40,700 nt of DNA from Phycisphaerales bacterium (GTDB lineage: Bacteria; Planctomycetota; Phycisphaerae; Phycisphaerales; UBA1924): the NCBI GenBank assembly GCA_014379385.1, contig JACMLW010000066.1, positions 1-40,700 of the forward strand. Direction: 5' to 3'. A program made the translations under genes and the position numbers. Positions 13,817-27,718 of the stretch are shown here, piece by piece; positions within the stretch are counted from its first letter, which is position 1; every line of letters begins with the position of its first letter. A model generated the notes under the pieces. It had not been told where the DNA came from and did no database searches. It was given only the letters and a program-made list of their open reading frames with translations.

Positions 13817-14581
13817 ATGAAACGACTGCACACATCCGCAGCAGCGATCGCGGCTTCGAAGCGCTGGTGGGTCCGCCCGCTCATCGCGGCGGTGCTGCTA
13901 ATTGCCTTGCTTCTGTCCGTATGGCTGACAGGAGATGGACTCGTGAGGGGAATAGGGGGGCGTCGGCTCTTTATCCAGGAGGTCGAGGGTGAGTTTGTTC
14001 TCCTCGACTCGGAAACCAGTCAGGGCGATATCGCCTCGTTGATTTACAATGGCGCGGAGATCTTCGAGGCACGCCTGAATCTTGGCACGCGTGAGATTGG
14101 GTTCTGGGTGCCGGTGGTGGAACGCGTGAGGTACGCACTTGTGCTGTACTACCTCGGAACAACGGAGCTCCCATCAGAAGAGAGGGAACGCGAGGTCGCG
14201 GCAGTAGCGCGGGGTTACTTTCTGACGACGGTCCCCGATCTTTCGTCTATGGCGTTCGAGGAGTGGAGGGTTGGGGGCAAGTGGACGCGCTTTGATGTCG
14301 ACTGGTGGGGCGTCACGCAGGCTGTTCTTCTTGTTCTGTTTTTCCTCGCCTTCCTCCGCACCCTCCCCTGGCTCTTCATCGGCGTGCATCGTGCCCGCGC
14401 CTGGCCCGCCCGCCGTCGCCTCGCCCGCGGCCAATGCCCCTTCTGCGGCTACGACCTCTCCGGCGCACCCAGCGATACCTGCCCCGAGTGCGGCCGCGAC
14501 GCGGGCCACGCTCATGCCGGGGTAGATACCCAGCGGGGCGCGGGCAGCAGCGGCCCACGACCGGCTGGTTCGCGTGTGTGA
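13817..14581 (+). CDS. Membrane protein with C-terminal zinc ribbon (CPFCGYDLSG type)
   Basis: 254 residues. ATG 13817 (or GTG 13814) begins a short basic leader, followed by a membrane segment at about 15-37 (LIAAVLLIALLLSVW), an extracytoplasmic domain of about 140 residues, a second membrane segment (about 178-205) and a basic region. It ends in a four-cysteine ribbon, CPFCGYDLSG...CPECGRD. The same plan, with the ribbon on the C-terminal cytoplasmic side, occurs twice at 24997-26185. The Cys pairs should bind zinc (inference). This copy is longer than the others and has an extra His/Gly-rich tail. The function is unknown; such proteins are frequent in planctomycete genomes. Confidence 0.75.
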   Translation: MKRLHTSAAAIAASKRWWVRPLIAAVLLIALLLSVWLTGDGLVRGIGGRRLFIQEVEGEFVLLDSETSQGDIASLIYNGAEIFEARLNLGTREIGFWVPVVERVRYALVLYYLGTTELPSEEREREVAAVARGYFLTTVPDLSSMAFEEWRVGGKWTRFDVDWWGVTQAVLLVLFFLAFLRTLPWLFIGVHRARAWPARRRLARGQCPFCGYDLSGAPSDTCPECGRDAGHAHAGVDTQRGAGSSGPRPAGSRV

Positions 14582-24758: not shown

Positions 24759-24983
24759 TGGAGGCCGATAGGCCGCTCCGCGCAGCGAGTGCGCCCGCCC
24801 CGCGCCCGAGACCCCGCCACCGTGTGTTCCCGTCCCAAGAGCTCCGCGGCCTCCCCTCGCTCCCAATCAATCCGCCGCGCAGCGGCCTTCCTGGGAGCAC
24901 GCCGTGCGACCCGCGCGGCTAGTGTGCCCGCCCCGCGTCCGCGTCGTTCCCTCTAGCTGAGCCGTGCAATCAGGCCCTCGTGA

Positions 24984-24989
24984 TACGCT
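24984..24989 (+). promoter_or_regulatory. Leaderless-type -10 element, zinc-ribbon gene 1
   Basis: TACGCT lies 7 nt before ATG 24997, within a segment (CCCTCGTGATACGCTCTGCT) repeated exactly upstream of the next paralogue. Confidence 0.5.
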
Positions 24990-24996
24990 CTGCTGC

Positions 24997-25572
24997 ATGT
25001 CCCGCCGCGGCCGCATCCGCCGACTTCTCCGACTCACCGCACTTGCCGCGTCGGCTCTGCTGCTCGCCCTCACCGTGGTGCTGTGGTGGAGAACGTCTGA
25101 ACCGTCCTACCGATGCTCAGTTGAGTTGGAATGTCGGTCATCAAGCCCCTCGGAGTCAAGTCGTGCGATAAGCGTGGACGCGTACGCGTACTGCATCTAC
25201 GTCGCGTTCCTTGATGGCTTCCCGTTTCGTGGCCCTGCGGAGCGGTCGTGGCATCTCGAAAGGAGGTCTGGGCTGGTCTTTACGAGTCTCATCACAAAGC
25301 GGACCGTGTGGGGCTGGCCGAGCGTGTACGGCCAATGGCGATCCACGTCAGTGCCCGGGTACTGGAGCCTAAAGCTCCCCCTCTGGATCCCCACAGTGAC
25401 GTTCGCGCTCTCTACCGTCTGGTTCACCTTCGCCACGCTCCGCGCACGACGCCGCGCCTGCCGCGCCGCCGGCCTTTGCATCAAGTGCCGTTACGACCTC
25501 TCTGGCCTCGCCCCCTCATCCGACGGCGCACCGGTGCCCTGCCCCGAGTGCGGCACGCCGCGTTCGCGATAA
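24997..25572 (+). CDS. Membrane protein with C-terminal zinc ribbon, paralogue 1
   Basis: 191 residues. Basic start MSRRGRIRRLLR, membrane segment about 12-32, an extracytoplasmic part of about 90 residues with several Trp and Tyr, a second membrane segment about 128-150 (LPLWIPTVTFALSTVWFTF), then a basic stretch and the ribbon CIKCRYDLSGLAP...CPECGTPR. The four Cys should bind zinc on the cytoplasmic side. It is a close tandem relative of the gene at 25622, sharing the start region, the second membrane segment and the ribbon, while the extracytoplasmic middle differs strongly. This suggests a sensor-like or partner-specific outer domain on a constant core. The function is unknown. Confidence 0.8.
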   Translation: MSRRGRIRRLLRLTALAASALLLALTVVLWWRTSEPSYRCSVELECRSSSPSESSRAISVDAYAYCIYVAFLDGFPFRGPAERSWHLERRSGLVFTSLITKRTVWGWPSVYGQWRSTSVPGYWSLKLPLWIPTVTFALSTVWFTFATLRARRRACRAAGLCIKCRYDLSGLAPSSDGAPVPCPECGTPRSR

Positions 25573-25608
25573 GCCCACATCCCGATCCGTGCAACGACGC
25601 CCTCGTGA

Positions 25609-25614
25609 TACGCT
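25609..25614 (+). promoter_or_regulatory. Leaderless-type -10 element, zinc-ribbon gene 2
   Basis: TACGCT, 7 nt before ATG 25622; same surrounding sequence as at 24984. Confidence 0.5.
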
Positions 25615-25621
25615 CTGCTGC

Positions 25622-26185
25622 ATGTCCCGCCGCGGCCGCCTCCGTCGAGCCCTCCGTCCCATCGCGCTTGTCGTCTCGGCGCTTCTTCTATCGCTGTCGG
25701 TCGCTACCTGGTACACGACGCTACACCGGTTCCGCCCCTTCAAGATCGAACTGGAGGTACCGCCGTTGTCGCCCGCCAGTCCTCCGTTTACGATGCTGCA
25801 GTTGTCGGTTGGATCGTCGAACGTCTTTGCTCAGGTCATGCGTAGTTCAAGCTACCGCACGACGCGCTGGGAGTTTCACGTCAACAGGTACCTTCCGGGC
25901 ATCCTGTTCAACCCTTATCCAGACTTCAACCTGCGCCTCCCGTCCTGCTCGTATCATGCCGTCGCCGGCACACGCTTTTACCGGGCCGAACTTCCCTTGT
26001 GGCTCCCGACTCTCGCCTTCGGTCTTTGCACGGCCTGGCTCGGCTTCGCAACATCTCGGGATGTGCGGCGGCAGTGGCGCGATCGACGCGGCCGCTGTAC
26101 GAAATGTAACTACGACCTCTCGGGCCTCACCCCCTTACCCACCGGCGCACCCGCGCCCTGCCCCGAGTGCGGCACCCCGCGCTGA
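25622..26185 (+). CDS. Membrane protein with C-terminal zinc ribbon, paralogue 2
   Basis: 187 residues, same plan as paralogue 1: MSRRGRLRRALR, membrane segment about 13-33, divergent outer region, second membrane segment LPLWLPTLAFGLCTAWLGF, basic linker and ribbon CTKCNYDLSGLTP...CPECGTPR at the very end. Nucleotide identity to paralogue 1 is high over the 40 nt around the start codon and at the 3' end, showing a tandem duplication followed by fast change of the middle. It starts 49 nt after paralogue 1 but has its own promoter-like element. Confidence 0.8.
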   Translation: MSRRGRLRRALRPIALVVSALLLSLSVATWYTTLHRFRPFKIELEVPPLSPASPPFTMLQLSVGSSNVFAQVMRSSSYRTTRWEFHVNRYLPGILFNPYPDFNLRLPSCSYHAVAGTRFYRAELPLWLPTLAFGLCTAWLGFATSRDVRRQWRDRRGRCTKCNYDLSGLTPLPTGAPAPCPECGTPR

Positions 26186-26493: not shown

Positions 26494-26645
26494 TTCAGAT
26501 CGCAGCCGCCTTCCTCGGGAGCCCGAAGGGCGGCCTCGCGGCCGCCCCGGCCGGCTCTCGCTCTCTTCCTCGCTCATCTGCATCTTCGTCAACGCCGACC
26601 GTGAACTCCCCGCGCTCTCCCCGCGGCCCAAACCGGACCCTCTGG

Positions 26646-26651
26646 TACTCT
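26646..26651 (+). promoter_or_regulatory. Leaderless-type -10 element, truncated zinc-ribbon copy
   Basis: TACTCT, 6 nt before ATG 26658, matching the arrangement of the two intact paralogues. Confidence 0.4.
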
Positions 26652-26657
26652 CTACCC

Positions 26658-26921
26658 ATGCGCCGCGGTCGCACTCGCCGAATCCTTTGCCTGATCGGCT
26701 TCGGAGTGTCAACCACACTCTTGGGCGCCACCATCTTCGTCTGGCGGGCCACTCTCGACACGATGTGGGGAATGCAAGTCGAGTTGCCTCCAACCTCGAA
26801 GAGCAACGAACTCAACTTCATTCTGTCGGATTCCGTCCTGCATTCGTTCTTTGCGCTCAACAACAAGCGCGGCCCGGCTCAGGCCATCCCCGCGGCGAGC
26901 GACACCACCAATCGCGCTTAG
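26658..26921 (+). pseudogene. Truncated third paralogue of the zinc-ribbon membrane family
   Basis: 87 codons. MRRGRTRRILCLIGFGVSTT and the following membrane segment (LLGATIFVWRAT) correspond to the N-termini of the genes at 24997 and 25622, including the promoter-like spacing. The outer region is present in part (MQVELPPTSKSNELNF), then the frame ends at TAG 26919-26921 without the second membrane segment or ribbon. It overlaps the end of the converging gene at 26918 by 4 nt. A ribbon-tail relic of the same family lies at 27668-27718. It is probably a broken copy, although a short membrane peptide could still be made. Confidence 0.6.
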
Positions 26922-27562
26922 TCGTTCGCGTGCGACCAGCCGACCTGCGCGGCCTTGACGAAGAGCAGGAACGTCGATGCCGCGGCCGTCATCGCGAGCA
27001 CCGCGATCGGACCCGCCCATGCGGAGAGCCGCGCCGGGCGCACCCTTGGTGTGTGTGGGGACGGCGGCTGCGTGGCGGGGGAAGGGGGAGCGGGCGTGGT
27101 CGGCGAATTTGCCGGCGCATCCGCGGAATCCACCTCGGTCGCGCGCCGATAGCCGGGGCCTCTGAAGTACACCCACGCCGCGTGCAGTGACGCGAGACCG
27201 AAGAGTCCTCCGCCCAGCAGCACCAGGGCCGCCAGCAGGTATCGGTGCATCCCGAAAGGCACGGGCGCGAACCACAGGAGCGTGTTGATGACCAGAACCG
27301 TGAGGGTGAAGCGCGTGGCGGCGCGCAGGGGCTTGAAGGTGCTGACGTGCCCGCAGGCGAGGGCCGCGATGAGCACGCCGCCGGCGACGAGCAGGGCGAG
27401 ATTGAGGTTGTAGAAGTGGGTGTCGAACGACTCGGGATCGTTGGGGATGCGCTCGAGCGCGATGAACATCGCGTAGAGGCTGCCGAGCGCAAGCGTGAGC
27501 AGCGTCAGGGTGATGGCGCCCGCGGCGCGAGACGTGCTCGGAGCTTCGTGGTCGCCGGGCAT
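26918..27562 (-). CDS. Integral membrane protein of unknown function
   Basis: 214 residues from ATG 27562. Four hydrophobic segments in the first 135 residues (about 13-34, 53-71, 84-100, 107-130), then a Pro/Ser/Thr-rich linker (SPTTPAPPSPATQPPSPHTP) and a final membrane segment (about 184-204). No known family is recognised. TAAGCT lies 6 nt before the ATG and there is no Shine-Dalgarno. The gene sits exactly between the truncated zinc-ribbon copy and the detached ribbon tail, so it may have been inserted there. Confidence 0.65.
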   Translation of the reverse strand: MPGDHEAPSTSRAAGAITLTLLTLALGSLYAMFIALERIPNDPESFDTHFYNLNLALLVAGGVLIAALACGHVSTFKPLRAATRFTLTVLVINTLLWFAPVPFGMHRYLLAALVLLGGGLFGLASLHAAWVYFRGPGYRRATEVDSADAPANSPTTPAPPSPATQPPSPHTPRVRPARLSAWAGPIAVLAMTAAASTFLLFVKAAQVGWSHAND

Positions 27563-27667: not shown

Positions 27668-27718
27668 CTCGCCGGCCTCGCCCCCTCACCCATCGGCGCA
27701 CCAGCGCCCTGCACCGAT
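27668..27718 (+). pseudogene. Relic of a zinc-ribbon C-terminus
   Basis: About 51 bp aligning without gaps to the 3' end of the intact paralogues (for example 26118-26167), with roughly 80% identity by eye. It would read HLAGLAPSPIGAPAPC and then diverge where PECG is expected. The first Cys pair is absent. It is a detached remnant of the family. Confidence 0.55.

Follow-up and report, generated by a model that had tools for sequence, protein, structure and literature searches.

Two tandem genes with a common start block and ribbon

The stretch of DNA analyzed here (the window) comprises 40,700 nucleotides of contig JACMLW010000066.1 of a Phycisphaerales bacterium and carries two tandem genes on its forward strand. 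Gene A (24997..25572) encodes, as read from its open reading frame and translation, a 191-amino acid protein predicted to consist of a first membrane segment (TM1), an extracytoplasmic middle of beta type, a second membrane segment (TM2), a basic stretch, and a C-terminal zinc ribbon. Its tandem paralogue, gene B (25622..26185; likewise from open reading frame and translation), encodes 187 amino acids and is 42% identical to A. An initial reading of the letters alone (the sequence-only reading) had noted that about 40 nt around the start codon are shared by the two genes, and we indeed find an exact run of 41 nt (the start block), spanning the putative promoter, the ATG, and the first six codons, at 24974..25014 and again at 25599..25639 (both forward strand). 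From -33 to +18 relative to the ATG, 48 of 51 bases are the same in A and B, and from -80 to -40 the count is 17 of 40. Searched as DNA against the whole genome, the start block has these two strong copies only (the second at E 3e-22, the next match at E 0.003).

When the identity between A and B was followed in 24-nt steps, it was 88-100% in the start region and 71% in the next two steps, lay at 17-50% between 64 and 375 and at 29-67% over TM2, and reached 75-92% in the three steps from 496, which cover most of the ribbon. Similarity drops through TM1 and is near background in the middle, as expected from the earlier description of middles that barely align. The variable middle has approximate bounds of 25093..25383 in A (17-50% nucleotide identity to B in most steps) and 25718..25996 in B (from the alignment and the step identity), both on the forward strand. 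The ribbons, also on the forward strand, are CIKCRYDLSG...CPECG in A (25477..25554) and CTKCNYDLSG...CPECG in B (26096..26173); the pattern C-x2-C-x-Y-D-L-S-G ... C-P-E-C-G is common to both genes, as had been reported, and each ribbon holds four cysteines as two CxxC pairs.

An AlphaFold2 model of A, based on an 18-row alignment (mean pLDDT 72), has helices at residues 3-32 and 130-158 with strands between them; residues 77-118 are below pLDDT 50. By hydropathy, only TM1 is above the threshold in A, and TM2 of the window pair is below it. The basic residues before TM1 and after TM2, together with the helices of the model, point to a topology in which the ribbon would be cytoplasmic. Comparison of the A model with solved structures gave a best E of 0.48 in Foldseek and no chain at Z >= 5 (best 4.1) in a second structure comparison, which is not proof of a new fold, and phmmer with gene B returned nothing better than E 0.63. 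For the long-type relatives of the family, the AlphaFold2 model was poor (pLDDT 51, 4 rows), and a sequence profile gave chance-level matches only against solved structures (best E 0.099, designed barrels).

Further copies in the window and in the genome

A third tandem copy, D (26658..26921, forward strand), encodes 87 amino acids with a family-like start and TM1, without TM2 or ribbon. It matches the family profile described below at E 7.1e-7 over profile positions 1-64 and has its own -10, TGGTACTCT, at 26643-26651 (forward strand). At 27668..27717 (forward strand) lies a remnant of ribbon-coding DNA, taken to be that of copy D and recognized by its alignment scores of 60 to the A ribbon and 65 to the B ribbon, against a control maximum of 28 (416 and 403 segments). 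Copy D thus appears as two pieces, the start half and the ribbon remnant, about 750 bp apart and with an opposite-strand open reading frame between them. The latter (26918..27562, reverse strand) encodes an unrelated membrane-type protein of 214 amino acids, has a leaderless-type -10 of its own, and matched no Pfam family at E 0.001.

The gene at 13817..14581 (forward strand), which the sequence-only reading had counted as a third member, does have the same plan, with two hydrophobic segments and the ribbon CPFCGYDLSG...CPECG, but it is only a distant relative: its global alignment scores to the tandem genes are 1 and 24, compared with 278 for A versus B, and the start block is absent. A further full paralogue is present on contig C148 (L003:1111-1692) of the same genome. 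Further, a DNA pattern for C-x2-C-x-Y-[DN]-L was found 24 times in this genome and once for the reversed control. We note that the CxxCxY[DN]L ribbon also occurs in differently built proteins, which have an N-terminal ribbon and several membrane segments or more than one ribbon per protein, and so appears to be a widely reused module in this genome. As a separate observation, GC-rich intergenic stretches (800-2300 of L003; 24750-24920 and 26480-26560 of the window) have motifs like CTTCCTCGGAGCCC in common. A dispersed intergenic repeat near the genes was considered and rejected, as a strict genome-wide pattern gave only 2 matches and establishes no repeat family.

Putative leaderless-type promoters precede family genes

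An extended -10, TGATACGCT, lies at 24981..24989, 7 nt before the ATG of gene A, as in a leaderless-type promoter, and at 25606..25614 before gene B (both forward strand). Over both strands of the window, an ATG follows 7 of 14 TGNTANNNT sites at a distance of 5-8 nt and one more at 23 nt, which suggests that leaderless genes may be common in this genome. The genome as a whole contains 17 instances of TGRTANNNT-N6-ATG and 4 of the reversed control; in the set of 41 genomes described below, the count is above control in 40, narrowly in some (10 versus 9 in G016), and below it in G038. From these counts and the window sites, read at the level of sequence only, the start block probably includes a general leaderless-type promoter. 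The TACGCT that had been pointed out as -10-like would then be the -10 of this promoter, but it is not specific to the family: the leaderless-type -10 sites in the window and the genome counts, which indicate a widespread motif, rule out that role.

The same motif was counted in 77 family genes of one genus, of which 8 were left out because their assigned start is not ATG. Among the 69 ATG-starting genes, TANNNT precedes the ATG by 5-8 nt in 39 and by exactly 6 nt in 35, compared with a background of 0.8% at 6 nt for all 8460 ATGs of the same loci; a -10 about 6 nt before the ATG is the position predicted for a leaderless promoter. In 17 genes, the first half of such a -10 (typically TAGGAT) is at the same time the stop codon of the family gene before it. 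Such overlaps of a TAG or TAA stop codon with the -10 (typically TAGGAT-N6-ATG) are found at L182, L189, L195, L196, L197, and other loci, and the window's own bacterial family offers examples too, such as an array junction in genome G075 where TAGGCT precedes the ATG.

A multi-copy family without a fitting domain model

A profile made from the window pair and the C148 paralogue was searched in 41 related genomes, including that of the window, and matched 31 of them (again including it), with up to 26 matches in one. Outside the window's genome, the matches listed cover mainly TM2 and the ribbon; the two-pass build of the relatives was read from their open reading frames. A profile built from one genus of the same order gave, in five genomes of that genus, 20, 40, 43, 5, and 40 matches, respectively (in three of them at least that many), at E 1e-6. 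Tandem arrays are frequent, as exemplified by nine family genes within 7 kb of genome G041, and the relatives at 23 named loci are labeled Phycisphaerales, Phycisphaerae, Phycisphaeraceae, Planctomycetaceae, or Planctomycetota. Across 149 genomes sampled from the whole phylum, a strict ribbon pattern, which misses variants with N for D, was clearly enriched in the window's own bacterial family, with 17-21 matches in each of its four genomes and 0 in their controls; elsewhere it stayed near control level, with matches (at most 7, against controls of the same order) in 40 of 145 genomes.

The four ribbon cysteines were all retained in each of the 24 full-span profile matches with a locus (in one genus, and with a profile that itself includes the ribbon), which agrees with the expectation that they are conserved across the family; one counter-example is a damaged ribbon in one of three members of an array in G075. 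None of nine proteins scanned with cut-offs reached a Pfam cut-off, and none of three window proteins reached one in NCBIfam. The nearest small-ribbon models stayed below theirs (PF09723, 17.5 and 15.9 bits versus 34.4; TIGR02605, 15.8 and 17.0 versus 31.3), and eleven long-type relatives matched small zinc-ribbon models and rubredoxin-like ones only weakly (best E 0.0004). The planctomycete and Phycisphaerales literature searched on zinc ribbons, family expansion, and gene conversion yielded no description of the family, nor did the passages searched in PMC3482391, PMC10783764, and PMC11266412. We regard this as an uncharacterized, multi-copy family without a fitting Pfam model, placed in Phycisphaerales through its named relatives.

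The middle is under purifying selection

The sequence-only reading had taken the contrast between constant ends and a diverged middle as a sign of selection on what the outer domain recognizes. Eleven pairs whose middles can be aligned were picked by hand. One of them has dS 0, and the middles of the other ten gave dN/dS values of 0.19-0.45, compared with 0.07-0.23 for the 14 best-conserved controls at these loci; the controls were drawn from 45 of 46 pairs, and four with a ratio >1 and dS <0.15, which look like wrong-frame open reading frames, were not used. The middle is therefore under purifying selection, less constrained than the best-conserved controls. Positive selection in the outer domain was looked for and not found, with no excess of replacements. 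Ratios above 1 were seen in the ends, namely in the N-end of one pair (1.28) and in the ribbon plus tail of three (1.11, 1.30, and 1.17), over 26-35 codons each, as could arise when non-orthologous ends are swapped in. Neutral divergence along the whole protein is excluded. Overall, the plan of constant ends and a diverged middle is real and recurrent, and this part of the first interpretation stands together with the ribbon cysteines; its claim of selection on the outer domain is not supported as stated, since the contrast alone does not demonstrate it, given the dN/dS of the middle and the synonymous homogenization of the ends described below.

In relatives, the ends are homogenized at synonymous sites

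Selection at the protein level acts on amino acids and should leave synonymous divergence about equal along a gene. We determined, for paralogues of one genome, how often identical residues use the same codon and compared the observed share with that expected from codon usage, using 28 hand-picked genes from six genomes. In G010 (8 genes), the share was 376/444 (0.85; expected 0.42) in the N-end, 210/596 (0.35; 0.40) in the middle, 476/696 (0.68; 0.39) in TM2, and 414/494 (0.84; 0.54) in the ribbon. The corresponding values for N-end, middle, TM2, and ribbon were 0.57 (expected 0.37), 0.35 (0.37), 0.64 (0.36), and 0.91 (0.45) in G027 (5 genes); 0.91 (0.39), 0.31 (0.44), 0.36 (0.39), and 0.93 (0.51) in G035 (3 genes); 0.72 (0.44), 0.44 (0.45), 0.70 (0.44), and 0.64 (0.54) in G023 (3 genes); and 0.62 (0.34), 0.41 (0.35), 0.55 (0.36), and 0.66 (0.45) in JADFOF (6 genes). 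Only a weak effect is seen in the genome of the window (3 genes), with 21/51 (0.41; expected 0.31), 15/48 (0.31; 0.39), 25/56 (0.45; 0.36), and 44/65 (0.68; 0.49), respectively. For the window pair itself, the same codon is used at 5/5 positions in the start block, 15/22 in the ribbon, and 4/13 and 5/16 in the two membrane segments, so that the homogenized stretch of this pair is short and consists of the start block and, partly, the ribbon only. Homogenized ends of this kind are not explained by selection on the protein, and, with the middle at background, part of the contrast between ends and middle would come from recombination or gene conversion of the ends.

The locality of the effect was assessed in the 77 family genes of one genus, which were chosen by ribbon pattern and so provide no measure of ribbon conservation, by shuffling array labels within genome and size class 2000 times. 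Codon agreement within a locus was 0.816 versus 0.717 shuffled for the ribbon (reached in 0/2000 shuffles) and 0.541 versus 0.458 for the N-end (2/2000); for the middle it was 0.347 versus 0.348 (720/2000). The ribbon also exceeds expectation between loci and between genomes (0.61-0.63). Not every array behaves alike: L061, a six-gene array on an assembled chromosome, is without homogenization (ribbon, 0.44 versus 0.41 expected; TM2, 0.32 versus 0.29), and L062, a second named array, is homogenized (ribbon, 0.71 versus 0.49 expected). Three genes passed the filter in G135, a genome in one contig. Their sole same-locus pair exceeds expectation in the N-end (6/7) and falls short of it in TM2 (6/15) and ribbon (6/13); the between-locus pairs are above expectation in the N-end (26/30), in TM2 (31/40), and, less so, in the ribbon (24/32), and their middles are also above it (59/97 = 0.61 versus 0.50). 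The same filter left one of three genes in G075 and none in L239.

Breakpoints and exchanged middles in relatives

Profiles of individual pairs show where similarity changes. Two G010 genes are 83-97% the same from -60 to 90, 27-47% from 90 to 420, and 87-100% beyond; of the four pairs profiled, one (with L119b) was clearly weaker. For two neighbors in G035, the agreement is 90-100% between -10 and 80, falls to 33-70%, and returns to 93-97% in the ribbon; of the eight profiles in this group, one was set aside, as its two neighbors in L197 were represented by overlapping DNA. The converse is seen for two G027 copies, which are 83-100% the same from -130 up to the ribbon and then drop to 63%; their middles are 98% identical and their ribbons 71%. 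Each ribbon of the G027 genes in the set is closest to one from its own array; the pairs compared here for middles and ribbons numbered twelve and were hand-picked. Among all 2926 pairs, 75 combine a ribbon identity of 90% or more with a middle identity of 45% or less, and 24 of these 75 are among the 124 same-locus pairs.

One middle shared by G027 and G031 has dS 0 over 131 codons, compared with 0.50-1.26 for six of the seven listed control pairs of these two genomes (the seventh is saturated), and another, shared by G027 and G041, has dS 0.25, compared with 0.58-1.42 for six control pairs. The arrays of G041 (nine genes) and G031 (six genes) adjoin the same flanking gene, whose protein is 91% identical between the two, and have two closely related middles in common, in different order; the end of the G031 contig is close to its array, which may therefore be incomplete.

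Discussion

The relatives of the window pair are best described, and probably explained, as two-pass membrane cassettes whose ends recombine and whose middles turn over, so that different outer modules are carried on one frame. The protein would be an inner-membrane protein with a short, basic, cytoplasmic N-terminus, an extracytoplasmic domain between TM1 and TM2, and, after TM2, a basic stretch leading to a C-terminal zinc ribbon on the cytoplasmic side. The start block, with its putative leaderless-type promoter and the code for TM1, and the ribbon block would be exchanged or homogenized by recombination, often between array neighbors, and the middles would be lost, duplicated, replaced, and transferred between species, giving rise to the arrays of different outer domains. 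In the relatives, the plan, the predicted promoter motifs, the homogenized ends, and the swapped middles can be seen in the sequences themselves; that recombination between ribbon blocks and start blocks is their cause is what we infer. Cassette-like evolution is best seen in these relatives and less in the window pair.

The genes could instead be ordinary paralogues with strong protein constraint on the membrane segments and the ribbon and a relaxed, linker-like outer domain, without recombination. The TM1 and TM2 segments of the window pair, in which synonymous sites have diverged, and the unhomogenized array L061 are what this would give, and dN/dS values such as those of the middle are unremarkable in such genes. 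However, the same-codon excess in the ends above a middle at background in G010, G027, G035, G023, and JADFOF is left unexplained, as are the breakpoints at the ribbon and the middle that has dS 0 in two species despite values of 0.5-1.3 in their other genes. This explanation is contradicted for the relatives listed, and we regard it as unlikely overall.

About equally unlikely, in our view, is that the genes are immunity or defense cassettes, each outer domain serving to neutralize one specific incoming toxin or phage component, in the manner of orphan-immunity arrays. Such a role would fit the tandem arrangement, the turnover seen between close species, and the horizontal transfer of single cassettes. 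On the other hand, PADLOC gave no match for six members, four of six proteins had weak PHROGs matches only (best E 0.005), to families without a known function, and no Pfam immunity family was found among the members scanned; one long-type protein had no plasmid match, and gene A had no phage match. In viral contigs searched with A1, 147 stretches fit a pattern, and none was confirmed as a relative. Ten proteins flanking the arrays were scanned and proved to be polyketide-cyclase-like, EPSP-synthase-like, PqiA, TspO, alcohol-dehydrogenase-like, FG-GAP, one double-zinc-ribbon protein, and three without a family; they indicate no single system, and no recombinase, toxin, secretion, or immunity family is among them. 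Near the nine-gene array, L182:12408-13352 (reverse strand) encodes a protein above the Pfam double-zinc-ribbon cut-off.

Somewhat less likely still, the ends may be kept alike as DNA or RNA, by a promoter, translation start, regulator site, or RNA signal in the ribbon code, and not by recombination. The start block does hold a putative leaderless-type promoter, the ribbon code in arrays lies directly upstream of the next promoter, and codons in the ribbon agree more often than expected even when different loci or genomes are compared. Yet a constraint of this kind should affect all copies alike, whereas ribbon agreement is higher within a locus (0.816) than after shuffling (0.717), and the two near-identical G027 copies have different ribbons. 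An assembly artifact, in which short-read misjoins at repeated ends create false mosaics, is very improbable: several array genomes are in many contigs and the alike ends form repeats of roughly 100-200 nt, but the mosaics of G010 lie on contigs of 61-539 kb, and, with few genes, mosaics are seen partly in the one-contig G135 and also in the two-contig G075.

Returning to recombining cassettes, we can only be tentative about what they do. The outer domains may bind different extracytoplasmic partners or threats, with TM2 and the ribbon coupling them to a common cytoplasmic partner or anchoring them; we rate this as possible, short of probable. With similar reserve, we suggest that the family could be a cassette system for outer-domain diversity, in which ribbon and start blocks serve as recombination joints, domains are captured, swapped, passed between species, and expressed at once, and the stop codon of the previous gene supplies half of the new promoter. 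As many cassettes appear from their sequence to have their own promoter, a new middle would be expected to be expressed at once. If this is true, little-cultured bacteria hold, in some genomes, dozens of copies of a family unnamed in the curated libraries searched, which would renew its outward-facing parts in a modular way, and ribbon-to-ribbon exchange between self-promoted units would provide handles on the recognition of partners, competitors, or phages. We also note, as a caution, that constant ends with a diverged middle need not imply diversifying selection.

Several known systems resemble parts of this picture. Poly-immunity loci and rAID orphan-immunity arrays, as presented in passages of PMC3482391 and PMC12247911, are arrays of diverse genes, as here; compared with what those passages describe, the proteins here are different, and the flanks scanned contain no recombinase or toxin family. 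According to a passage of PMC3482391, nearly all known immunity proteins are cytoplasmic, unlike the proteins of the present family, which are predicted to span the membrane. FmdB-type and double zinc ribbons (PF09723 Zn_ribbon_8, TIGR02605, and PF12773 DZR) have two CxxC knuckles in a short ribbon, as here, but in this family the ribbon is a C-terminal tail after TM2 and the scores of the proteins scanned are below the cut-offs. The family may also be likened to staphylococcal TcaA, which we take to be a membrane protein with a cytoplasmic zinc ribbon and an extracellular part; in TcaA the ribbon is presumably at the opposite end, and the phylum is another. A parallel in evolutionary pattern is seen with the gene-conversion cassettes of Borrelia vls and Neisseria pil, which have constant ends, a variable middle, and exchange between copies. 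Homogenized ends with differing middles are likewise found in the relatives, in the window pair for the start block and partly for the ribbon, and not in L061. Whereas vls and pil have one expression site and silent donors, many copies of the present family look separately promoted, with 39 of the 69 ATG-starting copies carrying a putative TANNNT of their own.
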